64,000 nucleotides of DNA, from assembly GCF_018987265.1 (NCBI RefSeq), contig NZ_CP076854.1, forward strand, positions 992,001 through 1,056,000, written 5' to 3'. A model generated the notes under the pieces. The model ran no database searches. It saw only the letters and a list, made by a program, of their open reading frames with translations, and had not been told where the DNA came from. The translations under genes and the position numbers were made by a program. Shown here in pieces: positions 24,840 through 46,844 of this stretch; within the stretch, counting starts at the first letter, position 1, and the number at the start of each line of letters is the position of its first letter. The stretch comes from Rhizobium sp. WYJ-E13 (GTDB taxonomy: Bacteria; Pseudomonadota; Alphaproteobacteria; Rhizobiales; Rhizobiaceae).

Positions 24840-25853
24840 TTATCTCACCCGGATGCGAGGATCGAGCAGCATGTAGCCAAGGTCGCCGAGCAGCTGCGTG
24901 ACGACGGCGACGGCGACGGTGATGAGCGTGGCGGCCTCGAGCGTGGCCATGTCGCCAAAGAGGCTCGCTTCGAGGATGAGGCGTCCGAAACCCGGATAGG
25001 CAAAGACGAGTTCGGTGACCACGACGCCGCTGATCAGAAAGTTGATCTGCAGGAGAAGCACGGTGAACGGCGCGATCATCGCATTGCGCAGCGCATGGGA
25101 AAGCACCATGCGGCGGGTGCTCATGCCTTTGAGGATGGCCGTGCGGATATAGGGCCGTTCCATGACGCCGATCATCGAGACCCGGATCATGCGGGCGACA
25201 TAGCCGAAATCGTAGATGACAAGGACAGCGACCGGCAGGACGAACTGGTAGGGAACCGCCCATCCACCATCGCTGTTGAGCGGGCTCGTTCCGGGCAGGA
25301 TCGGCCAGAGGATGACGAAAAGTGTCACCAGGAAAACGCCTGAAGCAAATTCCGGGATGGAGGTGAAGGTGATGCAGATAACCGAGAGCGTGCGGTCGAG
25401 CACGCCGCCTTCCCTGAGCCCCGACAGGACGCCGAAGACGATCGACAGCGGAACGATCAGCAGGAAAGCAAGACCTGCGAGGATCGCCGTGTTGCCAAGC
25501 CGATCCCAGATGACGTCGTTGACCGGAAGCTTGTTCAAGGTCGAATAGCCGAAATTGCCAAAATACTGGGCACCGCGCGGATCCTTGAAGTTCAGGCCGG
25601 TGGCAGGATCCTGAAGCGGATCGGGAATGGCGCCGACAAGCACGCCGAGCCAGCGGCCATAGCGCACGAGAAGCGGATCGTTTGCCTTGAGCTTCTCGGT
25701 GAGCAGATCGACCTGCTGCTGGGTTGCGAAGGGACCGAGCGATTTGCGTGCCACGCTGCCCGGCGTAAATTCGCAGACGGCAAAGACGAGAAACGAGGCG
25801 CACAGCATCGTCAGGATCATCATCGCCAGTCGTCGGAGGAGAAAATTCGCCAT
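24840..25853 (-). CDS. ABC transporter permease, DppB family
   Basis: This 337-residue membrane protein starts MANFLLRRLAMMILTM with the first helix. It carries a long periplasmic segment that includes GNFGYSTLNKLPV, then RLGNTAILAGLAFLLIVPLS, the coupling loop YIRTAILKGMSTRRMVLSHALRN and the C-terminal YPGFGRLIL. The N-terminal periplasmic loop is longer than in the other DppB proteins here (LVGAIPDPLQDPATG...), which may reflect a specific binding-protein interface. ATG 25853 begins at the family start; the frame upstream to 26045 has no family sequence. Confidence 0.9.
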   Translation of the reverse strand: MANFLLRRLAMMILTMLCASFLVFAVCEFTPGSVARKSLGPFATQQQVDLLTEKLKANDPLLVRYGRWLGVLVGAIPDPLQDPATGLNFKDPRGAQYFGNFGYSTLNKLPVNDVIWDRLGNTAILAGLAFLLIVPLSIVFGVLSGLREGGVLDRTLSVICITFTSIPEFASGVFLVTLFVILWPILPGTSPLNSDGGWAVPYQFVLPVAVLVIYDFGYVARMIRVSMIGVMERPYIRTAILKGMSTRRMVLSHALRNAMIAPFTVLLLQINFLISGVVVTELVFAYPGFGRLILEASLFGDMATLEAATLITVAVAVVTQLLGDLGYMLLDPRIRVR

Positions 25854-36516: not shown

Positions 36517-36834
36517 GTGAAATCTCGATTGTCGTCCAAATTTTTGCTTTCAGCATCTGCGTTACTCATCAGTTCCACGCTGGCTTCAGCTCAGGGATGG
36601 CAAACCGACACGCAAGGTACGTCCAATTGGCATGTGTCACCGCCGATCGGGCAGTGCAACGTCAGTCGAGCCAGAAACAGAGCGATACGCGCGGGCATTT
36701 ACCGAAGCGAGATCGTCTATCGTGACGAGAATGTGCTGACCTTCAGGGGGCTGACGATTAACGGAGATCGCAAGGAGATCACCTTCGGAAACGAGCCAAG
36801 CTGCCCGGAACTGGAGTCGAGAGATATCCCATAG
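36517..36834 (+). CDS. small secreted protein, hypothetical
   Basis: I do not recognise this 105-residue protein. It starts with a clear Sec signal peptide: MKSRLSSKF, a hydrophobic core (LLSASALLISSTLA) and a likely cleavage after ASA near residue 25. The mature part is about 80 residues with two cysteines (GQCNVSR and PSCPE) that could form a disulfide, and beta-rich segments (YRSEIVYRDENVLTFRG). GTG 36517 is chosen for GGAG seven bases upstream. It stands alone between a DUF2934 gene and the guanidine operon and has no evident link to either. Confidence 0.7.
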   Translation: MKSRLSSKFLLSASALLISSTLASAQGWQTDTQGTSNWHVSPPIGQCNVSRARNRAIRAGIYRSEIVYRDENVLTFRGLTINGDRKEITFGNEPSCPELESRDIP

Positions 36835-36935
36835 ATCGCCAAACGAATGAATTATCTCCTAGCTCAATTTTTTCATAGCCGCCAACTTTCTAGGAATGTT
36901 AATTTTTACGCATATCGCTGACGCACCCAGCACAT

Positions 36936-36952
36936 TGCCTATTTTATAGGCA
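36936..36952. promoter_or_regulatory. 17-base inverted repeat upstream of the guanidine operon
   Basis: TGCCTAT at 36936-36942 and ATAGGCA at 36946-36952 form a perfect 7-base inverted repeat with a TTT centre. It is about 100 bases before the predicted sigma-54 transcription start and could bind an activator or repressor. Confidence 0.4.
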
Positions 36953-36970
36953 TTAGTATGCACTTTTTCG

Positions 36971-36984
36971 GCACTTGCCAGTGC
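36971..36984. promoter_or_regulatory. GCAC-N6-GTGC palindrome, possible NtrC-type enhancer site
   Basis: GCACTTGCCAGTGC is a near palindrome centred about 75 bases before the predicted start. It resembles the NtrC consensus (GCAC and GTGC arms) but its spacer is six rather than the usual seven bases, so the match is imperfect. Confidence 0.35.
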
Positions 36985-37026
36985 GCAACATACGTCAGCT
37001 CTATAAAATCAAATAGATACACCACC

Positions 37027-37042
37027 TGGCATGGTGTTTGCT
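37027..37042 (+). promoter_or_regulatory. sigma-54 (RpoN) -24/-12 promoter
   Basis: TGGCATGGTGTTTGCT at 37027-37042 matches the consensus TGGCACG-N4-TTGCW: GG at 37028-37029 and GC at 37040-37041 with exactly ten bases between. The predicted transcription start, about 12 bases after the -12 element, is near 37052, directly before the riboswitch. This would place guanidine use under nitrogen control. Confidence 0.72.
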
Positions 37043-37058
37043 TTGAGAAAGGCAGAGT

Positions 37059-37165
37059 TGGTGGCTAGGGTTCCGGCGCTCTTAGAGAGCGCGGCTGGTC
37101 CGAGAGCCACCACCGGCGGGGGAGAAATCCCGCCGGGTGCACGGCGGGACAAAAGCCCGGGAGAC
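37059..37165 (+). ncRNA. guanidine-I riboswitch (ykkC class)
   Basis: The leader holds the conserved ykkC blocks in order: GCTAGGGTTCCGG near 37064-37076, GGTCCGAGAGCCACC near 37097-37111, a hairpin at 37111-37139 and GGCGGGACAAAAGCCCGGG ending near 37162. GGTGGC (37060-37065) pairs with GCCACC (37106-37111). This class binds free guanidinium and normally turns expression on by preventing a terminator. The downstream operon encodes guanidine import and degradation, which fits exactly. Boundaries are approximate by a few bases. Confidence 0.93.
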
Positions 37166-37175
37166 CTCGTAAGCC

Positions 37176-37214
37176 AAGGGATTGGCGGCACGATGGTCAT
37201 TGCCGATCCCTTTT
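37176..37214 (+). terminator. riboswitch-controlled terminator hairpin
   Basis: AAGGGATTGGC at 37176-37186 pairs with GCCGATCCCTT at 37202-37212 (eleven pairs, one G-U) and is followed by the rest of a four-base T-run ending at 37214. It lies between the aptamer and the first start codon at 37240. Ligand binding should disfavour it. Confidence 0.7.
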
Positions 37215-37239
37215 GAAGAAAAGCAAAAGGGGAATTTCA

Positions 37240-38313
37240 ATGCAGACTTTTTCGAAAATCCTTTCCGTAACCGCGCTCTCTGTGTCGCTGGCGCTCGGGT
37301 TCGGCTCCATCGCCGAGGCCGAGCAGAAGACCGAATTCAAGGTCGCATGGTCGATCTATGTCGGCTGGATGCCCTGGGGCTATGCAGCTGACCACGGCAT
37401 CGTCAAGAAATGGGCCGACAAATACGGCATCAAGATCGATGTCACGCAGTTCAACGATTATGTGGAGTCAATGAACCAGTACACGGCCGGCGCCTTCGAT
37501 GCCGTGACCCTGACAAATATGGACGGCCTGTCGATCCCCGCCGCCGGCGGCGTCGATACGACAGCGGTCATTGTCGGCGACTTCTCGAACGGCAATGATG
37601 CCGTCATTCTGAAAGACAAGGCGAACCTCACCGATATCAAGGGCCAAAACGTCAACCTCGTCGAATTCTCCGTCTCGCACTACCTGCTGGCCCGTGCGCT
37701 CGAAAGCATCAAACTGACGGAGCGGGACGTGAAGGTGGTCAATACCTCAGACGCCGACATGGTCGCCGCCTACAAGACGCCCGATGTCACCGCCGTCGTC
37801 ACCTGGAACCCGCTGGTCTCCTCCATCCTTGAAGATCCCACCGCCAAGAAGGTTTTCGACAGCTCGCAGGTGCCGGGCGAGATCATCGACCTGATGGTCG
37901 CCAATACCGGCGTACTGAAAGACAATCCGAATTTCGGCAAGGCGCTTGCCGGCATCTGGTATGAGACGGCCGCTCTGCTGAGGGCCGACACCGCTGAGGG
38001 CAAGGCAGCCCGCGAGGCCATGGGTTCGGCATCCGGCACCGATCTTGCCGGCTACGAAGCCCAGCTCGCCGCCACCAAGCTCTTCGACAAGCCGGCTGAT
38101 GCAGTTGCATTCACCGCCTCGCCGAGCCTGCCGAAGACCATGGACCTCGTCCGCGCCTTCCTCTTCGAAAAGGGTCTGCTCGGCAACGGCGCCCCGTCTG
38201 CCGATGTCATCGGCATTGAAATGCCCGACGGCAAGGTGCTGGGTGACACGGGCAACGTGAAGCTGCGTTTCACCGAAACCTACATGAAGGCCGCAGCCGA
38301 CGGTTCGCTCTGA
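37240..38313 (+). CDS. guanidine-operon ABC substrate-binding protein (NitT/TauT type)
   Basis: This 357-residue periplasmic protein has a Sec signal (MQTFSKILSVTALSVSLALGFGSIAEAE) and the nitrate/taurine-type binding fold: FKVAWSIYVGWMPWGYA, FNDYVESMNQYTAGAFDAVTL, DTTAVIVGDFSNGNDAVI and TWNPLVSSIL. The ligand is inferred to be guanidine (or a guanidinium compound), because the gene is the first one behind the guanidine-I riboswitch and shares the operon with the degradation enzymes. ATG 37240 has AAAGGGGAA upstream. A 61-base gap with a stem-loop separates it from the permease gene. Confidence 0.88.
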   Translation: MQTFSKILSVTALSVSLALGFGSIAEAEQKTEFKVAWSIYVGWMPWGYAADHGIVKKWADKYGIKIDVTQFNDYVESMNQYTAGAFDAVTLTNMDGLSIPAAGGVDTTAVIVGDFSNGNDAVILKDKANLTDIKGQNVNLVEFSVSHYLLARALESIKLTERDVKVVNTSDADMVAAYKTPDVTAVVTWNPLVSSILEDPTAKKVFDSSQVPGEIIDLMVANTGVLKDNPNFGKALAGIWYETAALLRADTAEGKAAREAMGSASGTDLAGYEAQLAATKLFDKPADAVAFTASPSLPKTMDLVRAFLFEKGLLGNGAPSADVIGIEMPDGKVLGDTGNVKLRFTETYMKAAADGSL

Positions 38314-38374: not shown

Positions 38375-39193
38375 ATGCGTTGGATCAACACGAGGCCGAG
38401 CCGGGGCGCACAGTTTGCCTTGATGACGTTGCCATTCGTGCTGCTCGTCGTCGCCTATGCGTTCGGTTCGGCCGCGCGACTGGCGGATAACGCCAATGAC
38501 AAGCTTCTGCCAAGCCTTGCTGGCTTTGCCGATGCGATCAACCGCCTGGCCTTCGTTGCCGACCAGCGCACAGGCGAATATCTGCTCTGGTCGGATACGG
38601 GAGCAAGCCTGATCCGGCTGCTCTCCGGCCTCGGGATCTCCACCGCAATTGCGCTCGTCGTCGGCATGCTGATCGGCATGCTGCCTTATCTGAGAGCGCT
38701 GCTTTCCCCTTTCGTTGCCGTCATCTCCATGGTGCCGCCGCTGGCACTCCTGCCTATCCTCTTCATCGTCATGGGGCTCGGCGAAACCTCGAAGATTGCC
38801 CTCATCGTGATCGGCGTCGCGCCGACGATGATCCGCGACCTGGCACTGAAGGCGCTGGAGCTGCCCCGCGAACAGATCGTCAAGGCCGAGACGCTCGGCG
38901 GCTCCTCATGGCAGATCGGCCTGCGTGTCGTGCTGCCGCAGATTCTGCCGCGGCTGATAACCTGCCTCAGATTGCAGCTCGGCCCGGCATGGCTGTTTCT
39001 GATCGCGGCGGAGGCGATCTCCTCGGATTCCGGCCTCGGTTACCGCATCTTCCTCGTCCGCCGCTATCTCTCGATGGATATCATCTTTCCCTATGTGGTC
39101 TGGATCACCCTGCTTGCCGTCGTGATGAATTATCTACTCGACCGCCTGCGCATCGCCGTCTTCCCCTGGTCGGAACTGGAGAGGCAGGCATGA
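38375..39193 (+). CDS. guanidine-operon ABC permease (SsuC/TauC type)
   Basis: This 272-residue inner-membrane protein has about six helices and the family coupling loop EQIVKAETLGGSSWQIGLRVVLPQILP, with SMVPPLALLPILFIVMGLGETSKI before it and LQLGPAWLFLIAAEAISSDSGLGYRI after it. It would form the homodimeric channel of the NitT/TauT-type importer. ATG 38375 has GCGGAG upstream. Its TGA overlaps the ATG of the ATPase gene (ATGA), so the two are translated together. Confidence 0.9.
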   Translation: MRWINTRPSRGAQFALMTLPFVLLVVAYAFGSAARLADNANDKLLPSLAGFADAINRLAFVADQRTGEYLLWSDTGASLIRLLSGLGISTAIALVVGMLIGMLPYLRALLSPFVAVISMVPPLALLPILFIVMGLGETSKIALIVIGVAPTMIRDLALKALELPREQIVKAETLGGSSWQIGLRVVLPQILPRLITCLRLQLGPAWLFLIAAEAISSDSGLGYRIFLVRRYLSMDIIFPYVVWITLLAVVMNYLLDRLRIAVFPWSELERQA

Positions 39194-40014
39194 GCGAGCT
39201 GAAGATCGAAAAGGTCTGGAAGGAATATGGAGACCAGATCGTGCTCGAGGACGTGTCGCTGACCGTCGCCTCGCGGGCCTTCGTCGCTCTGGTCGGCCCT
39301 TCCGGCTGCGGCAAGTCCACATTTCTGCGCATGCTGCTTGGTCAGGAACGGCCGACGAAGGGCAAGATCCTGCTCGACGGTGAGCCGCTGCCACCGGAAC
39401 CTGGGCCAGATCGTGGAGTCGTCTTCCAGCGCTATTCCGTCTTCCCGCACCTGACCGTGCTCGGCAATGTGCTGCTCGGCAAGGAATTGACCGCCGCACG
39501 CTACAGGGCGAGGCTCTTCGGTGCAGCCCGCCGCAACGCGTTGGAAGACGCGCGCCGGCTGATTGCCGAGGTCGGTCTCGCCGGTTCCGAAGGCAAATAT
39601 CCGGCCCAGCTTTCCGGAGGCATGCAGCAGCGCCTTGCGCTGGCCCAGGCGCTGATCATGAAGCCGAAGGTGCTGCTGCTCGACGAGCCTTTCGGCGCGC
39701 TCGATCCCGGCATCCGCGCCGAGATCCACATGTTGATGAAACGGCTCTGGCACGAGACGCAGATGACCGTCGTCATCGTCACGCACGACATGCGCGAAGC
39801 CTTCACCCTTGCGAGCCGAGTCGTCGCCTTCGAACGCCGCCGCGACCGGCCGGAGGAGAAGGAGCGTTACGGCGCCACCATCACCAAGGACATTTCCATC
39901 TGGCCACCGCGCCTTGCCGGCCAGTCATCGATTTTCAGCCCCGACCGGGACGGCCCGGTCGCTTCCCTGGGGCACGGCCGGGACGACCTGGCACCGTCAG
40001 GAGAGATGCTATGA
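39190..40014 (+). CDS. guanidine-operon ABC ATPase (SsuB/TauB type)
   Basis: This 274-residue cytoplasmic ATPase has Walker A GPSGCGKST near residue 40, the Q-loop VVFQRYSVFPHLTV, the signature LSGGMQQRLALAQAL, Walker B VLLLDEPFGALD and the H-loop VIVTHDM. It would power the guanidine importer. After the NBD there is a tail of about 40 residues rich in charged residues, as in homologues tied to urea-amidolyase operons. ATG 39190 overlaps the permease stop, and its own TGA overlaps the next ATG, continuing the coupled chain. Confidence 0.92.
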   Translation: MSELKIEKVWKEYGDQIVLEDVSLTVASRAFVALVGPSGCGKSTFLRMLLGQERPTKGKILLDGEPLPPEPGPDRGVVFQRYSVFPHLTVLGNVLLGKELTAARYRARLFGAARRNALEDARRLIAEVGLAGSEGKYPAQLSGGMQQRLALAQALIMKPKVLLLDEPFGALDPGIRAEIHMLMKRLWHETQMTVVIVTHDMREAFTLASRVVAFERRRDRPEEKERYGATITKDISIWPPRLAGQSSIFSPDRDGPVASLGHGRDDLAPSGEML

Positions 40015-40832
40015 TGCATATGAGACGTTCGCCCGAAGAGATCGCCGCCAACCGCGCGCGCTACGATGAACATCAGAAGAAGGGGCTGGAATTTGCCCCC
40101 AAGGCACTGCCCGGCCCAAGCCCGCTGCCGGCGCCGGCCATCGATGCCGCCGCCATCGTTCATCAGGAGACCATTCCGGGCGGTTGGTACTGGTCCACGA
40201 AGCTCCTACGCGGTGAAGCAATCCGCATCGATCAGGCAGAGGGCAATTCCACGGTAGCGCTCGTCGCCTGGAACGCGGCCGATACCAGCGAGCGCATTAA
40301 TCTGGTCGATACCGCCAAGGTCCAGTGGACGACGGCGCTCGGCAAGGGGCGTGTGATCTTCTCCGACATGGGCCGCGTCATGTTCTCGATGATCGAGGAC
40401 AGTTCCGGTGCCCATGACTGCCTGATGGGTGGCTCGACGGCCGTCTCGAATGCAGACAAATATCCCGGCGAGAAGACGCGCAATACTCGTGACAACCTCG
40501 TCCTCGTCGCCGGCAAGCTCGGCCTTGACCGCCGCGACATACCCGGCATCCTCAATCTCTTCGCACCCGTTCGCCTTACCGAGGACGGTGGCTTCGGCTG
40601 GCAGAAGAAGCTCTCCAACAGCGGTGACTATGTGGAGCTGCGAGCAGAAATGGACATGCTGGTCGGCTTTTCCAATTGCCCGCATCCGCTTGATCCCGAA
40701 CCGGCCTATCAGCCGAAGCCGGTCGTCGTTACGCGCTACAAGGCCGCGGTTCCGGCCACGGATGATCTTTGCCGGACGGCAACCGCTGAAGCCGTGCGCG
40801 GCTTCGAAAACAACGCCTTGATGCAGGCCTGA
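40011..40832 (+). CDS. DUF1989 protein UAAP1 (subunit of carboxyguanidine deiminase)
   Basis: This 273-residue protein belongs to the urea-amidolyase-associated DUF1989 group: WSTKLLRGEAIRIDQAEGNSTV, GRVIFSDMGRVMFSMIEDS, the cysteine motif HDCLMGG, TRDNLVLVAGKLGL and GFSNCPHPLDP. Published work on guanidine degradation identified the two DUF1989 proteins as the CgdA/CgdB complex, which converts carboxyguanidine to allophanate with release of ammonia. I do not assign which subunit is A or B. ATG 40011 overlaps the ATPase stop; GGAG lies upstream. The next DUF1989 gene starts 11 bases after its stop. Confidence 0.9.
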   Translation: MMHMRRSPEEIAANRARYDEHQKKGLEFAPKALPGPSPLPAPAIDAAAIVHQETIPGGWYWSTKLLRGEAIRIDQAEGNSTVALVAWNAADTSERINLVDTAKVQWTTALGKGRVIFSDMGRVMFSMIEDSSGAHDCLMGGSTAVSNADKYPGEKTRNTRDNLVLVAGKLGLDRRDIPGILNLFAPVRLTEDGGFGWQKKLSNSGDYVELRAEMDMLVGFSNCPHPLDPEPAYQPKPVVVTRYKAAVPATDDLCRTATAEAVRGFENNALMQA

Positions 40833-40842
40833 GGAGAAGACG

Positions 40843-41493
40843 ATGTCCGATTTCATCCAGACCTCCCCAGCCCGCGCCATAGAAAATGCCGCGCAGGATC
40901 ACTTCATTCCAGCAGAAGCCCCATGGTCCGGCATCGTGCGCAAGGGCCAGACGATCCGCATCGAGGACAGTTACGGCCAACAGGCTATCGACACGCTCTT
41001 CTATCGTGCCGGTGATTTTTCCGAGCGCTATTCCAACCAGGATACGATGCGCATGCAAGGTGCCGCCTATGTCGGCATCGGCACGAAGATCATGTCGAAC
41101 GAAGGCAATGTCATGCTCACCATGACGGCAGACAGCTGCGGCCGTCATGACACGTCGGCCGGCGCCTGCTCCTGCGAGAGCAATACGGTGCGCTTCGGCC
41201 ATGGCACGAAATACCTGCACGCCTGCCGCGACAACTTCGTCCTCGAAGTTTCGAAACACGGCATGGGCAAGCGCGACATCGTCCCGAACATCAATTTCTT
41301 CATGAACGTGCCGATCAAGCCGAATGGCGAGATGACGATCGTCGACGGCATCTCCGCGCCGGGCGATTATGTCGAACTCGTCGCCGAGATGGACGTGCTC
41401 TGTGTCATCTCCAACTGCCCGCAAATCAACAACCCGTGCAACGGCTTCGATCCGACGCCGATCCGCGTGCTGATCTGGGATGGCGAGGACTGA
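40843..41493 (+). CDS. DUF1989 protein UAAP2 (subunit of carboxyguanidine deiminase)
   Basis: This 216-residue DUF1989 protein is the partner of the previous gene. It has WSGIVRKGQTIRIEDSYGQQAID, the cysteine-rich block DSCGRHDTSAGACSCESN near residue 100, ACRDNFVLEVSKHGM and MDVLCVISNCPQINNP. The cysteines and histidine look suited to binding zinc. Together the two proteins would deiminate carboxyguanidine to allophanate. The start ATG 40843 has GAGGAG just upstream, and its stop is two bases before the carboxylase ATG. Confidence 0.9.
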   Translation: MSDFIQTSPARAIENAAQDHFIPAEAPWSGIVRKGQTIRIEDSYGQQAIDTLFYRAGDFSERYSNQDTMRMQGAAYVGIGTKIMSNEGNVMLTMTADSCGRHDTSAGACSCESNTVRFGHGTKYLHACRDNFVLEVSKHGMGKRDIVPNINFFMNVPIKPNGEMTIVDGISAPGDYVELVAEMDVLCVISNCPQINNPCNGFDPTPIRVLIWDGED

Positions 41494-41495
41494 GG

Positions 41496-44400
41496 ATGTT
41501 CAAGAAAGTCCTGATCGCAAACCGGGGCGAAATCGCCATCCGGGTCATCAAGACCCTGAGGCGCATGGGAATTGCTTCCGTCGCCGTCTATTCCGATGCC
41601 GACCGTTTCGCAAAGCCTGCCGTGATGGCCGATGAAGCTGTTCGCCTCGGCCCGGCGCCGGCCAGCGAAAGCTATCTCAACGTCGATGCCGTGATTGCCG
41701 CCTGCAAGGCGACCGGTGCCGAGGCGGTGCATCCCGGCTATGGCTTCCTGTCGGAAAATATCGGCTTTGCCGAGCGTCTGGCCGCTGAAGGCATCGCCTT
41801 CATCGGCCCGCGACCCGAGCATCTCTCAGCCTTCGGACTCAAGCACACGGCCCGCGAACTCGCCAAGGCGAGCGGTGTGCCGCTCCTGCCCGGTACCGGC
41901 TTGCTATCGAGCACCGACGAAGCACTCTCTGCTGCAGAAGCGATCGGCTATCCTGTCATGCTGAAAAGCACGGCAGGCGGCGGCGGCATCGGCATGCAGC
42001 TCTGTGGTGATCCGGAAAGCCTCAAGGCCTCGTTCGAAAGCGTGCAGCGAACCGCGCGGGCGAGCTTCGGTGATGCGCGTGTCTATATCGAACGTTTTGT
42101 AGCCGAAGCCCGCCATGTTGAAGTGCAGATCTTCGGCGACGGGAAAGGCACGGTCATCGCGCTCGGCGAGCGCGACTGCTCGCTGCAGCGGCGGAATCAA
42201 AAGGTGGTCGAGGAGACCCCTGCCCCCGGTCTTTCCGCAGCAATCCGCGCTCGCCTGCACAAGGCAGCCGTCGATCTCGGTTCGTCGGTCTCCTACGAAT
42301 CCGCCGGCACCGTCGAATTCATTTACGACCCCGTGCGTGAGGAGTTCTTTTTCCTTGAGGTCAACACTCGCCTGCAGGTCGAGCATCCGGTAACGGAAGC
42401 CGTCTTCGGCATAGATCTCGTTGAATGGATGATCCGCCAAGCGGCGGGCGAAGACGTACTCTCCGGCACAGAGACCCTGCAGCCGAAGGGTGCAGCGATC
42501 GAGGTGCGCGTCTATGCGGAGATGCCGCATGCAGATTTCCGCCCAAGCGCCGGGCTGCTGACGGAGGTGTCATTCCCTGATGATGCACGTATCGACGGTT
42601 GGGTCGAGACGGGCACGGAGGTGACGCCTTTCTACGATCCAATGCTCGCCAAGATCATCGTCTCTGCTCAGGATCGCCCAGCAGCGATCGAGAAGCTGAA
42701 GGCCGCGCTTTCGAGCACATCGATATCGGGCATCGAGACCAACCTGGATTACCTTCGCGCCATCGCCGGTTCGGATCTACTCGCCAGCGGCAAGGTGGCA
42801 ACAACGGCGTTGCGTGACTTTTCCTTCGTACCCGAGGTCATCGAGGTGCTTACGCCGGGCGCGCAGTCGAGTATCCAGGAACTGCCGGGTCGCCTCGGCC
42901 TGTGGCATGTCGGCGTGCCGCCGAGCGGTCCGATGGACGAGCGCTCGTTCCGCCATGCCAACCGCCTCGTCGGCAACGGTGATATGGTTGCGGCGCTGGA
43001 ACTGACGGTTTCCGGTCCGGTGCTGAAATTCCATACCGATACGGTGGTGGCGCTCGCCGGTGCCAGAATGGCAATAAGCGTTGATGGCGCGAAATTGCCG
43101 CATGGCGAAGCCGTGATTATCCGCGCCGGCCAGATCCTCTCAATCGGCAGCATCGATGGGCCGGGGCAGCGGGCCTATCTGGCTGTGGCAGGCGGTTTTG
43201 CCGCTCCCGCCGTGCTCGGTTCACGCGCCACCTTCGGCCTCGGCCAGTTCGGGGGCAACGCTACAGGTACGCTGAAGACTGGCCATGTACTGCATCTTGC
43301 CAGAGAGGTTGCTGTCGGGCCGCCGAAACCGGCGACGGAGCCGGCAGAATTGACCCGTGAATGGGATGTCGGCGTTGTCTATGGCCCGCATGGTGCCCCC
43401 GATTTCTTTGAGGACGGCGATATCGAGACGCTGTTTTCGACGAGCTACGAGGTGCATTTCAACAGCGCCCGCACCGGCGTGCGCCTGATCGGCCCGGCGC
43501 CGAAATGGGCACGTAGCGACGGTGGAGAGGCAGGCCTTCATCCCTCAAATCTGCATGACAACGCCTATGCCATCGGCGCGATCGATTTTACCGGCGACAT
43601 GCCGATCATCCTGGGTCCGGACGGACCGAGCCTCGGTGGATTCGTCTGCCCTGCGGTGATCGCCCGCGACGAGCAGTGGAAGATGGGGCAGTTCAAACCG
43701 GGCGACCGCATCCGCTTCCATCCCGTTTCACGTTCTGAGGATCCGATTGCCGGCCCGGCGGTGCATCGGGCCAAGGAGGAGGCGGGCACACCGATCGTCG
43801 GCCACCGTGACGATGGACCCGTCTCCGTCGTCTACCGCCGGCAGGGTGACGACAACCTGCTGGTCGAGTATGGGCCGATGACGCTCGATATCGCTCTGCG
43901 GCTCAGGGTTCATCTCCTGATGCAGGCCGTATCGAAAGCGCGTCTGCCAGGGATTATCGATCTCACGCCAGGCATCCGCTCGCTGCAGATTCACTATGAC
44001 GGTACGAATTTGACCCGCAAGCGCCTGCTTGGCTTGCTCGCCGAGATCGAGGCGGGCCTGCCGGCAGCCCAGGACGTCAAAGTGCCGAGCCGCATCGTGC
44101 ATCTGCCGCTATCCTGGAACGATCCGGACGCGGAACTTGCCATGCGCAAGTATCAGGAGCTCGTGCGGCCGAACGCGCCATGGTGCCCGTCCAATATCGA
44201 GTTCATCCGCCGCATCAATGGTCTTGCGGATGAACAGGCGGTGCGCGATGTCGTCTTCGATGCCAGCTACCTGGTGCTCGGCCTCGGCGACGTCTATCTC
44301 GGCGCGCCGGTCGCCACTCCGATCGATCCGCGCCATCGGCTCGTAACGACCAAATATAATCCGGCCCGCACATGGACACCGGAAAATGCCGTCGGTATCG

Positions 44401-45035
44401 GCGGCGCCTATATGTGCATCTATGGCATGGAAGGCCCTGGCGGTTACCAGCTCTTCGGCCGCACCATCCAGATGTGGAATACGTGGCGGCAGACGCCGGT
44501 CTTTGCCAAGGACAAGCCGTGGCTGCTCGATTACTTCGATCAGATCCGCTTCTTCCCGGTCAGCCACCAGGAGCTGGCGGAAGCCCGCGGCGCCTTCCCG
44601 CATGGCGGCTACCCCGTCACGATCGAGGAAACGGAATTCTCCTATGCGGCCTATGAGAGCGAACTGCTGGCGAATACCGCCTCGATCGGCAGCTTCAAGA
44701 CGAGACAGCAGGCGGCCTTCGATGCCGAGCGCCAACGCTGGAAGGAGGCGGGCCTCGACAGCTTCGTCGCTGACGAAGGCTCAGTCGAAAGCCTGGACGG
44801 GGATATTCCCGAGGGATGCTTCGGCGTGGCCAGCGCCGTACCCGGCAATATCTGGAAACTGCTGGTCGAGCCGGGCGTACCGGTCGCGGCCGGCGACACG
44901 CTTGCCATCATCGAATCCATGAAAATGGAAATCAACGTCACCGCACATGCGCCGGGCCGTGTCCGCGACCTGCGCGCCGGGCCCGGACGAAACGTCAAAG
45001 CGGGCGATATCATTGTTGTTCTGGAGGAATGCTGA
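41496..45035 (+). CDS. biotin-dependent guanidine carboxylase (urea carboxylase family)
   Basis: This 1179-residue protein contains, in order: biotin carboxylase (KVLIANRGEIAIRVI, HPGYGFLSEN, the ATP-grasp loop STAGGGGIGMQL, EVNTRLQVEHPVTE), the allophanate-hydrolase-type carboxyltransferase halves (LGLWHVGVPPSGPMD, ending GGAYMCIYGMEGPGGYQLFGR) and a biotin carrier domain with ESMKMEINV, lysine near residue 1143. It would carboxylate guanidine to carboxyguanidine using ATP and bicarbonate. Guanidine rather than urea is inferred from the riboswitch and the DUF1989 pair; an Asp/Asn difference reported in the carboxyltransferase domain would settle it, but I could not align it. ATG 41496 has GAGG upstream. 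Confidence 0.93.
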   Translation: MFKKVLIANRGEIAIRVIKTLRRMGIASVAVYSDADRFAKPAVMADEAVRLGPAPASESYLNVDAVIAACKATGAEAVHPGYGFLSENIGFAERLAAEGIAFIGPRPEHLSAFGLKHTARELAKASGVPLLPGTGLLSSTDEALSAAEAIGYPVMLKSTAGGGGIGMQLCGDPESLKASFESVQRTARASFGDARVYIERFVAEARHVEVQIFGDGKGTVIALGERDCSLQRRNQKVVEETPAPGLSAAIRARLHKAAVDLGSSVSYESAGTVEFIYDPVREEFFFLEVNTRLQVEHPVTEAVFGIDLVEWMIRQAAGEDVLSGTETLQPKGAAIEVRVYAEMPHADFRPSAGLLTEVSFPDDARIDGWVETGTEVTPFYDPMLAKIIVSAQDRPAAIEKLKAALSSTSISGIETNLDYLRAIAGSDLLASGKVATTALRDFSFVPEVIEVLTPGAQSSIQELPGRLGLWHVGVPPSGPMDERSFRHANRLVGNGDMVAALELTVSGPVLKFHTDTVVALAGARMAISVDGAKLPHGEAVIIRAGQILSIGSIDGPGQRAYLAVAGGFAAPAVLGSRATFGLGQFGGNATGTLKTGHVLHLAREVAVGPPKPATEPAELTREWDVGVVYGPHGAPDFFEDGDIETLFSTSYEVHFNSARTGVRLIGPAPKWARSDGGEAGLHPSNLHDNAYAIGAIDFTGDMPIILGPDGPSLGGFVCPAVIARDEQWKMGQFKPGDRIRFHPVSRSEDPIAGPAVHRAKEEAGTPIVGHRDDGPVSVVYRRQGDDNLLVEYGPMTLDIALRLRVHLLMQAVSKARLPGIIDLTPGIRSLQIHYDGTNLTRKRLLGLLAEIEAGLPAAQDVKVPSRIVHLPLSWNDPDAELAMRKYQELVRPNAPWCPSNIEFIRRINGLADEQAVRDVVFDASYLVLGLGDVYLGAPVATPIDPRHRLVTTKYNPARTWTPENAVGIGGAYMCIYGMEGPGGYQLFGRTIQMWNTWRQTPVFAKDKPWLLDYFDQIRFFPVSHQELAEARGAFPHGGYPVTIEETEFSYAAYESELLANTASIGSFKTRQQAAFDAERQRWKEAGLDSFVADEGSVESLDGDIPEGCFGVASAVPGNIWKLLVEPGVPVAAGDTLAIIESMKMEINVTAHAPGRVRDLRAGPGRNVKAGDIIVVLEEC

Positions 45036-45038
45036 CCT

Positions 45039-46844
45039 ATGCTGCCGACCATTCTTGATCTGACAAGCCTTCGCGCAGCCTATGAGGCGGGCACAACCCC
45101 GCTCGATGTCATCGAGACCGTGATTGCCCGTCGTGCCGCCTCGAAGGATCCGGCAATCTTCATCACGCCGACGCCTGATGACACGTTGCGGGCCGAGGCT
45201 CGCGCCCTGATGGAGCGAGCGCCAACGCCAAATAGCCTGCCGCTCTGGGGCATGCCCTTCGCGGTGAAGGACAACATCGACGTGGCGGGGCTGCCGACCA
45301 CCGCTGCCTGCCCGGCTTTCGCCTATCATCCCGAGAAGGACGCAACTGTCGTTGCACGACTGCGGGCGGCAGGTGCGATCGTGATCGGCAAGACCAATCT
45401 CGATCAGTTCGCGACCGGCCTCAATGGTACGCGCTCACCCCATGGAGCGCCACGATCGGTCTTTGACTCCGACTATATCTCCGGCGGTTCGAGCTCCGGT
45501 TCGGCGGTGACGGTGGCATCTGGCCTCGCCACCTTCGCACTCGGCACGGATACGGCAGGTTCAGGTCGTGTGCCGGCCGCTTTCAACAATCTCGTCGGCA
45601 TCAAGCCGACTCCGGGCCTGCTGTCGAATACCGGCGCGGTGCCGGCCTGCAAGAGCGTCGATTGCATCACCATCTTTGCCGCTGTTGTCGGCGACGGCGT
45701 CGCAATCCGCAAGATTGCCGAGGGCTTCGATGCCGCCGACGCGTTCTCCAGGCGTGCCAAGCCGGCTTCGCTTCCGGCCGCCGCCCCGCGCGTCGGCGTT
45801 CTCGACGGCGCAGAGCGCGAATTCTTCGGCGATGCCAATGTCGAGGCGCTCTACGATCAGGCAATCGACCGGGCCAGAGCGCTCGGCGCGACGATCGTTC
45901 CCTTCGATTACGCGCCATTCCGTGAGGCGGCTTCTCTCCTCTATGATGGCCCTTGGGTTGCCGAGCGCCTGGCTGCCGTCGAAGATTTCCTGGCGAGCAA
46001 TGCCGCCGATTTCGATCCCACGGTCCGCAAGATTATCGAAGGCGCGAAAGGCAAAACCGCTGTCGATGCCTTCAATGGCCGTTACAAGCTCGAAGAGTTG
46101 CGGCGCAAGACGGAGGACGAATGGGCAAAGGCCGATCTGCTGCTGCTGCCGACAGCACCGACGACCTATAAAGTCGCCGACATGCAGGCCGACCCGATCG
46201 TGCTCAACGGTCGGCTTGGCCGCTACACGAACTTTGTCAATCTGCTCGATTGCGCTGCAATCGCTGTTCCGGCCGGCTTCGGCGACAACGGCCTGCCGGG
46301 CGGCGTGACACTGGTTGCGCCAGCCTTCACCGACGATGCGCTGGCTCCCCTTGCCGATGCGCTGCATCGCGCAGCCGCAGCCGGCATGGGTGTCGACCGC
46401 ACTGCGGCGATGCCTGAGCAGAGCCGTGTCGCCTCGCTGACAGACGACACCATCGCCATCGCCGTAGTCGGCGCGCATCTGACGGGTATGCCGCTCAATC
46501 ATGAGCTGACAACATTGGGTGGCACATTGGTAAGGGCTTGCCGCACCGCAGGCGATTATCGTCTCTTCGTGCTTCCGAATACTATGCCGCAAAAGCCCGG
46601 CCTCGTCCGCGAGCCGGGGTATGACGGGCATGGACTGGAGATCGAGGTCTGGGCGTTGCCGCCGGAGGGCTTCGGCCGTTTCGTTGCAAATATCCCTGCC
46701 CCGCTTGGTATCGGCAAGGTGACGCTGGAGGACGGTTCGGGCGTATCGTGCTTTCTCTGTGAATCCCACGCTGTCGACGGAGCCGAGGAGATCACGGCTC
46801 TCGGCGGCTGGCGGAACTATATGCGCAGCAAATCGGCCGCTTGA
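45039..46844 (+). CDS. atzF: allophanate hydrolase
   Basis: This 601-residue enzyme hydrolyses allophanate and ends the pathway with ammonia and CO2. The N-terminal amidase domain has the Ser-Ser-Lys catalytic set: PFAVKDNIDVAG (Lys near 75), ISGGSSSGSAVTVA (cis-Ser) and GTDTAGSGRVPAAFN (nucleophile). The C-terminal domain (AVVGAHLTGMPLNHEL, KPGLVRE) is the second half known from AtzF and urea amidolyase that handles the N-carboxyurea intermediate. ATG 45039 is three bases after the carboxylase stop. It is separate from the carboxylase, unlike the fused fungal enzyme. No terminator is clear after it. Confidence 0.94.
   Translation: MLPTILDLTSLRAAYEAGTTPLDVIETVIARRAASKDPAIFITPTPDDTLRAEARALMERAPTPNSLPLWGMPFAVKDNIDVAGLPTTAACPAFAYHPEKDATVVARLRAAGAIVIGKTNLDQFATGLNGTRSPHGAPRSVFDSDYISGGSSSGSAVTVASGLATFALGTDTAGSGRVPAAFNNLVGIKPTPGLLSNTGAVPACKSVDCITIFAAVVGDGVAIRKIAEGFDAADAFSRRAKPASLPAAAPRVGVLDGAEREFFGDANVEALYDQAIDRARALGATIVPFDYAPFREAASLLYDGPWVAERLAAVEDFLASNAADFDPTVRKIIEGAKGKTAVDAFNGRYKLEELRRKTEDEWAKADLLLLPTAPTTYKVADMQADPIVLNGRLGRYTNFVNLLDCAAIAVPAGFGDNGLPGGVTLVAPAFTDDALAPLADALHRAAAAGMGVDRTAAMPEQSRVASLTDDTIAIAVVGAHLTGMPLNHELTTLGGTLVRACRTAGDYRLFVLPNTMPQKPGLVREPGYDGHGLEIEVWALPPEGFGRFVANIPAPLGIGKVTLEDGSGVSCFLCESHAVDGAEEITALGGWRNYMRSKSAA

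Follow-up and report, generated by a model that had tools for sequence, protein, structure and literature searches.

Operons in which a guanidine-I riboswitch in the 5' leader and an internal guanidine-II riboswitch accompany genes for an ABC importer, a carboxylase and an allophanate hydrolase have been described for Vreelandella boliviensis, Raoultella, Erwinia and Klebsiella; the combination of both riboswitch classes in one operon is an already published arrangement (PMC12508155, PMC12186494). The sections of these accounts considered here name neither a promoter class nor a nitrogen regulator. In V. boliviensis most of the operon proteins are made on guanidine, not on ammonium (PMC12508155), a pattern which would fit control by guanidine alone as well as an AND gate. 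According to a review of 2025 it is an open question whether bacteria meet free guanidine chiefly as a nitrogen source or as a poison; the terms "sigma", "NtrC" and "NtcA" do not occur in that review (PMC12186494).

A link to nitrogen control comes from other reports. In an ntrC mutant of Burkholderia cenocepacia H111 under nitrogen limitation the urea carboxylase I35_7286 is down by log2 6.0, and no reads are obtained for the neighbouring importer and aminomethyltransferase-type genes (PMC5491218). Judged by gene descriptions, I35_7283-7286 is like the operon presented below: a urea-carboxylase-related importer, an aminomethyltransferase-type protein and a carboxylase, all ntrC-dependent. The authors read it as urea use, and the parts of the paper considered mention no riboswitch (PMC5491218). 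Elsewhere 102 COG3665 genes were predicted to be sigma-54-dependent, 59% of them named urea carboxylase; the main text lacks the word "guanidine", has "riboswitch" solely in a reference and, as far as covered here, contains no analysis of spacing or activator for this operon (PMC12316311). In Sinorhizobium meliloti, TGC-N11-GCA is the NtrC motif, with a footprint from -121 to -95 of nfeR1; there, according to the sections considered, NtrC represses, and it does so on a sigma-70 promoter (PMC10746234). Our literature search returned no paper that connects sigma-54 with guanidine riboswitches; some key subscription articles lay beyond it, and an earlier description is possible. The papers which combined guanidine, riboswitch and NtrC dealt, by title, with c-di-GMP.

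The locus presented here lies in the window, i.e., the whole 64-kb stretch of Rhizobium DNA that was analysed, on a contig of 2.15 Mb in a genome of 6.9 Mb. It carries a sigma-54 box, a guanidine-I aptamer and an NtrC-type upstream site which are conserved among related loci and are linked to guanidine-assimilation genes. We propose, with a probability of roughly 0.84, that this guanidine-assimilation operon is under a two-signal switch, nitrogen limitation acting through NtrC and sigma-54, and guanidine acting through the riboswitch. The features are, in order:

36936..36952, + strand: NtrC-type upstream site TGCCTATTTTATAGGCA, TGC-N11-GCA, at about -117 to -101, a perfect palindrome in its 7 outer pairs
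37027-37042, + strand: sigma-54 -24/-12 box TGGCATGGTGTTTGCT, 11/12 scored positions of TGGCACGNNNNTTGCW, GG-N10-GC exact
37053, + strand: predicted transcription start, 12 nt past C37041 of the -12 GC (originally predicted near 37052)
37054-37165, + strand: guanidine-I riboswitch aptamer (RF00442), 97.4 bits against a gathering score of 63
37163..37198, + strand: leader hairpin A (GACC/GGUC, UCGU/ACGA, GCCAA-GGGA-UUGGC), its 5' strand overlapping the aptamer 3' end
37176..37212, + strand: leader hairpin B, 11 pairs, 37176-37186 with 37202-37212, initially called a terminator
37207..37232, + strand: leader hairpin C, UCCCUUUUG (37207-37215) with CAAAAGGGG (37224-37232), covering the Shine-Dalgarno sequence
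37240..38313, + strand: substrate-binding protein of an ABC importer (NMT1-like)
38375..39193, + strand: ABC permease (BPD_transp_1)
39190..40014, + strand: ABC ATPase
39942..39991, + strand: guanidine-II riboswitch (RF01068), 40.4 bits against a cut-off of 32
40011..40832, + strand: DUF1989 protein (UAAP1 type)
40843..41493, + strand: DUF1989 protein (UAAP2 type)
41493..45035, + strand: biotin-dependent urea/guanidine carboxylase
45039..46844, + strand: allophanate hydrolase; the operon ends at 46844

We take COG3665 to be the DUF1989 family. In the proposed sequence of events, phosphorylated NtrC would bind TGCCTATTTTATAGGCA about 110 bp upstream under nitrogen limitation and loop to the sigma-54 RNA polymerase on TGGCATGGTGTTTGCT. 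The RNA would start at about 37053, its first bases being the guanidine-I aptamer. The leader would then decide on guanidine, and the importer, carboxylase and allophanate hydrolase would be expressed only if guanidine is bound. The internal guanidine-II riboswitch may serve as a second guanidine check ahead of the DUF1989 genes. Since the start site, guanidine binding and the dependence of the operon on NtrC and sigma-54 in Rhizobium are all predictions, the AND logic is likewise a predicted one; we consider it likely.

The RF00442 match is full length (model 1-107 of 107), with a covariance-model score above the curated cut-off, and downstream the importer, the DUF1989 pair, the carboxylase and the allophanate hydrolase form a guanidine transport and degradation context. 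The element at 37054-37165 is a guanidine-I riboswitch, as had been claimed, with predicted guanidine binding. The gene order in Rhizobium etli CFN 42 is identical; this strain also carries the aptamer, the sigma-54 box and the NtrC-type site, and rpoN1 and ntrC mutants of it have been described (PMC3188799). The guanidine-II riboswitch sits within the ABC ATPase frame (ORF to 40014), shortly 5' of the next start codon, and RF01068 is present in 16/20 selected downstream regions. In V. boliviensis guanidine-II is intergenic and precedes gca, whereas in the window the ATPase frame contains it, ahead of the first DUF1989 gene (PMC12508155).

For comparison, genomes were searched with RF00442. 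Matches were present in 108/148 genomes of the genus, 66/394 of the family, 31/385 of the class and 43/398 of the phylum sample. The resulting set of 180 guanidine-I-like loci takes in every match from the samples of family, class and phylum apart from a single match at a contig edge (G779:C347), and the best 30 of 110 genus matches. For L085 the centre was moved manually to the core of the locus.

For the way in which the leader responds to guanidine two readings compete. In the first the switch is translational. Without guanidine hairpin A would form and CCCUUUU would cover the Shine-Dalgarno sequence as hairpin C; guanidine would lock the aptamer 3' end, B would form and the Shine-Dalgarno sequence would be freed. 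In the second, hairpin B is an intrinsic terminator at which polymerase stops near 37214 without guanidine, binding preventing the stop. The free leader folds with A and C at a minimum of -30.1, compared with -24.8 when B is forced. A and B share bases, and the 5' strand of A overlaps the aptamer end. A pattern for the leader comparison matched 124 loci. Over 36 unique sequences the share of cells that can pair is 100% for A, 99% for B and 95% for C. In two loci (L058, L060) the 3' strand of B, CCAAUCC, is, by eye, once more the complement of the Shine-Dalgarno region, GGAUUGG. Against the translational switch, the folding model still favours C (-24.4) over B (-20.9) when the aptamer end is held single-stranded, and C slid by one position pairs equally well (96%). 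Covariation was discarded as support for any of the leader helices because double changes number 0-1 per helix in the 36 sequences, i.e., there is no real covariation.

As to termination, B is the best fold of a leader cut before the Shine-Dalgarno sequence (-19.8 kcal/mol), it pairs in 99% of cells, 5-6 U follow the CCC in some relatives, and the guanidine-I switch of V. boliviensis is called "presumably acting on transcription" by its authors (PMC12508155). In the window only four U follow the CCC, two of them within the stem. An intrinsic terminator combines a G+C-rich stem with an immediate U-rich run; here the stem is present and the U-run is too short, and hairpin B is missing from the output of a terminator pattern scan over 36800-37300. 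The U after CCC number three in L043 and L046 and none in L058 and L060. The eleven-pair hairpin which had been announced as a terminator is real in its exact eleven pairs, while its terminator role is weak in view of the short U-run, the silent scan and the competition with the Shine-Dalgarno hairpin. Termination is the weaker of the two readings and a doubtful, if possible, one. Translational control is tentatively favoured, at somewhat short of even odds.

As to the activator, TGC-N11-GCA occurs in 56/123 non-redundant upstream regions, compared with 15.3 in shuffles (maximum 27); these 123 loci remain related to each other. Spacings of N5-N10 and N12-N17 reach 9-20 each among the same regions (N8 19). 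The sites are also helically phased. For 54 sites located 50-135 nt from the box R is 0.54 at 10.5 bp, and 0/5000 jittered sets were as high. The phasing persists without the cluster at 78-84 (32 sites, P 0.006), outside the family (20 sites, P 0.029) and in named genomes (34 sites, R 0.72, 0/3000), a set which partly overlaps the class sample. Other spacings served as controls and gave R 0.12-0.19, except N9 (0.56, 8 sites) and N12 (0.70, 6 sites), which have too few sites to judge.

The same form of site is shared with P-II genes. Among alphaproteobacterial P-II loci, leaving out three at contig edges, the box is present in 20/28, and 12 of those 20 have the N11 site; other spacings from N6 to N16 occur 0-3 times each, except N14 with 7/20. 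The sigma-54/NtrC promoters of P-II genes (glnB/glnK) thus share the box and, in these 12 of 20 loci, TGC-N11-GCA with the window; the difference is that the predicted RNA of the window starts at an aptamer, which would add a second input. A direct link to glnB and glnK of the window's own genome was dropped: both promoters have the box, and at both the exact TGC-N11-GCA is absent. A different picture emerges at dctA-type family loci (L306-L335). The box is present in 23/30, N8 in 18/23 and N11 in 3/23. TGC-N8-GCA at these promoters is likely a DctD site and distinct from the N11 form. DctD was rejected as activator of the guanidine operon on this comparison, given that the guanidine loci have N11 in 56 and N8 in 19 of 123.

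In form and position the site at 36936-36952 agrees with the nfeR1 site of S. meliloti at which NtrC was footprinted (PMC10746234). The enrichment of N11 only, the phasing, the sharing with P-II promoters, the contrast with dctA and the form of the S. meliloti footprint make NtrC a well-supported activator, which would act through the predicted upstream site. The genome encodes NtrC (TIGR01818, 698.8 bits against a cut-off of 558.6) and a single copy of rpoN (PF04552, 232 bits). The original prediction had named NtrC from general knowledge of RpoN promoters; the upstream site, the presence of rpoN and ntrC and the footprint form now support it, and on these grounds we infer NtrC dependence in Rhizobium. 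A sigma-54 promoter which obeys another activator, and hence responds to another signal, is improbable. The NtrC model has five strong matches in the genome, one alone above the cut-off, and about half of the box loci do without the exact NtrC-type site (absent from 67/123), both of which leave some room for it; against it stand the N11 spacing, as at P-II promoters and unlike the N8 of dctA, an NtrC footprint of the same form (PMC10746234) and the ntrC dependence in B. cenocepacia (PMC5491218).

Two further sequences near the promoter were considered. The IHF-type site WATCAANNNNTTR was rejected as a promoter part. It occurs in 10/66 family loci and in 0/57 others, and 9 of the 10 are at one position, for which shared descent is the likely reason. 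The window itself has a near-match to the IHF site, AATCAAATAGATA at 37007-37019; the exact matches in 9 family loci are at the same place. An inverted repeat, ACACCACCTGGCATGGTGT at 37019-37037, spans the -24 element and is probably incidental.

The box was scored against TGGCACGNNNNTTGCW, taken as the sigma-54 consensus. In print it is given as GGcacg-N4-ttGC (PMC5491218). From the -12 C (C37041) to the aptamer start there are 12 bases, and the predicted +1 at 37053 is one base 5' of the start of the Rfam model. On both strands of the 64-kb window other sigma-54-like sites comprise one at 11/12 and eight at 10/12. The sole further 11/12 site is TGGCACGCAAATCGCT at 25753 on the minus strand.

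A box was counted when it scored 10/12 or better and was positioned at most 150 nt upstream of the aptamer. It is present in 148/180 guanidine-I-like loci, in 118 with at least 11/12 and in 29 with 12/12; the controls give 2.4% of dinucleotide shuffles and 12/1223 same-strand flanking windows. GG is kept in 148/148 boxes and GC in 141/148. Six of the seven GC exceptions read TTGA or TTGG at -12 in an otherwise good box with a good -24 half (L031, L033, L038, L042, L068, L071). The glnK box of the window's own genome likewise reads TTTGAA. Absence of the box from close homologues would have spoken against the original prediction; 84/88 same-family loci with a downstream guanidine-operon gene have it. 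With its 11/12 match, exact GG-N10-GC spacing and position conserved among relatives, the -24/-12 element stands as first described. These data support a sigma-54 promoter immediately 5' of the aptamer and a predicted sigma-54 dependence in Rhizobium. It is very improbable that the box resembles a promoter by chance and that the operon is driven by an upstream sigma-70 promoter: the riboswitch does persist in loci without a box (15/160), yet the box is found in 148/180 loci compared with about 1% of flanking windows, and sigma-70 in place of sigma-54 was rejected after a pattern scan of 36800-37300 reported no site of that type.

The pairing of box and aptamer occurs across Pseudomonadota: 85/99 loci in the family, 27/41 in other Alphaproteobacteria and 36/40 elsewhere. 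How far the aptamer lies from the -12 C differs between these groups. The gap is 11-17 nt (median 12) in 85 family loci, 5-15 nt (median 10) in 27 loci of other Alphaproteobacteria and 13-84 nt (median 56.5) outside Alphaproteobacteria. Thus tight stacking is an alphaproteobacterial trait and the pairing itself is wider. The initial statement had spoken of rhizobia, which is too narrow a frame for the pairing. When named genomes were scanned for a box lying 14-21 nt ahead of CTAGGGTTCCG, 62 stretches matched. They include Azospirillum, Skermanella, Parvibaculum, Acidiphilium, Methyloligella and one MAG of Magnetospirillum (L265); as the scan requires a box it gives no frequency. Magnetospirillum gryphiswaldense is not among the matches of this box-plus-CTAGGGTTCCG pattern. 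Its guanidine-I match is listed at 119,571-119,680 on the minus strand (PMC9549626, Table 1), and in one of two conditions a start was mapped at 119,678, 2 nt inside the match (PMC9549626). By analogy this start within guanidine-I may be taken as supportive, and as no more than that, for a start at the position set by a sigma-54 box.

Does the box follow the function of the downstream genes? A locus was called an assimilation locus when a homologue of any window operon gene lies within 900 nt. The box is present in 145/160 such loci and in 3/20 others (Fisher p 1.7e-12, calculated on loci which are not independent). In 14 of the 20 non-operon loci the first gene encodes an EamA transporter, and the box is found in 0/14. 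All 14 guanidine-I-like RNAs (L086, L152-L156, L158-L161, L163, L184-L186) are below the Rfam cut-off and may therefore be a variant aptamer, so that this comparison does not separate the aptamer variant from the promoter type. Of the remaining six loci, two precede TonB-receptor genes and have the box (L064, L069), and two are unclear in their genes, one with a 10/12 box (L157) and one without (L149). In the last two, guanidine-I elements above the cut-off and without box precede an arginase-family gene (L111) or a gene for an amino-acid permease (L176). These two cases may represent guanidinase-type assimilation without sigma-54, and they count against a simple rule of box and function.

From these comparisons a wider reading suggests itself, which we hold to be probable, less firmly so than the proposal for the window. 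An AND gate of NtrC/sigma-54 and guanidine-I would extend through much of Pseudomonadota, the alphaproteobacterial aptamer would begin within a few bases of +1, and promoter class would separate guanidine as food from guanidine as stress, the latter since the EamA-linked RNAs are without a sigma-54 box. If the regulator of nitrogen starvation governs the assimilation operons, the cells treat such guanidine as food. The promoter in each genome could then be read as a statement of guanidine use, and a widespread natural two-signal gate would join a DNA-bound activator with an RNA sensor. Its parts are testable in model rhizobia, e.g., Rhizobium etli CFN 42 and R. tropici CIAT 899. A prediction is that riboswitch assays in ammonium-rich medium would miss most of the response.

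Loss of rpoN was rejected as the general cause of missing boxes. An rpoN match (PF04552) is present in 25/25 tested box genomes and in 13/15 box-less genomes; i.e., among the 15/160 assimilation loci without box, 13 genomes have rpoN and only two (G1120, G1210) are without a match. In G1251 rpoN is represented by two low-scoring copies. It is split over two frames in G956 and likewise in G497, which has the box. In one family (f25; L177, L182 and L183 in G1120, G1251 and G1210) riboswitch and importer are kept, the box is absent, and 2/3 genomes have no rpoN match. In one genus (g155; L067, L073, L078) a TTTGCT -12 half is at the usual distance, the -24 half is degenerate and rpoN is present.
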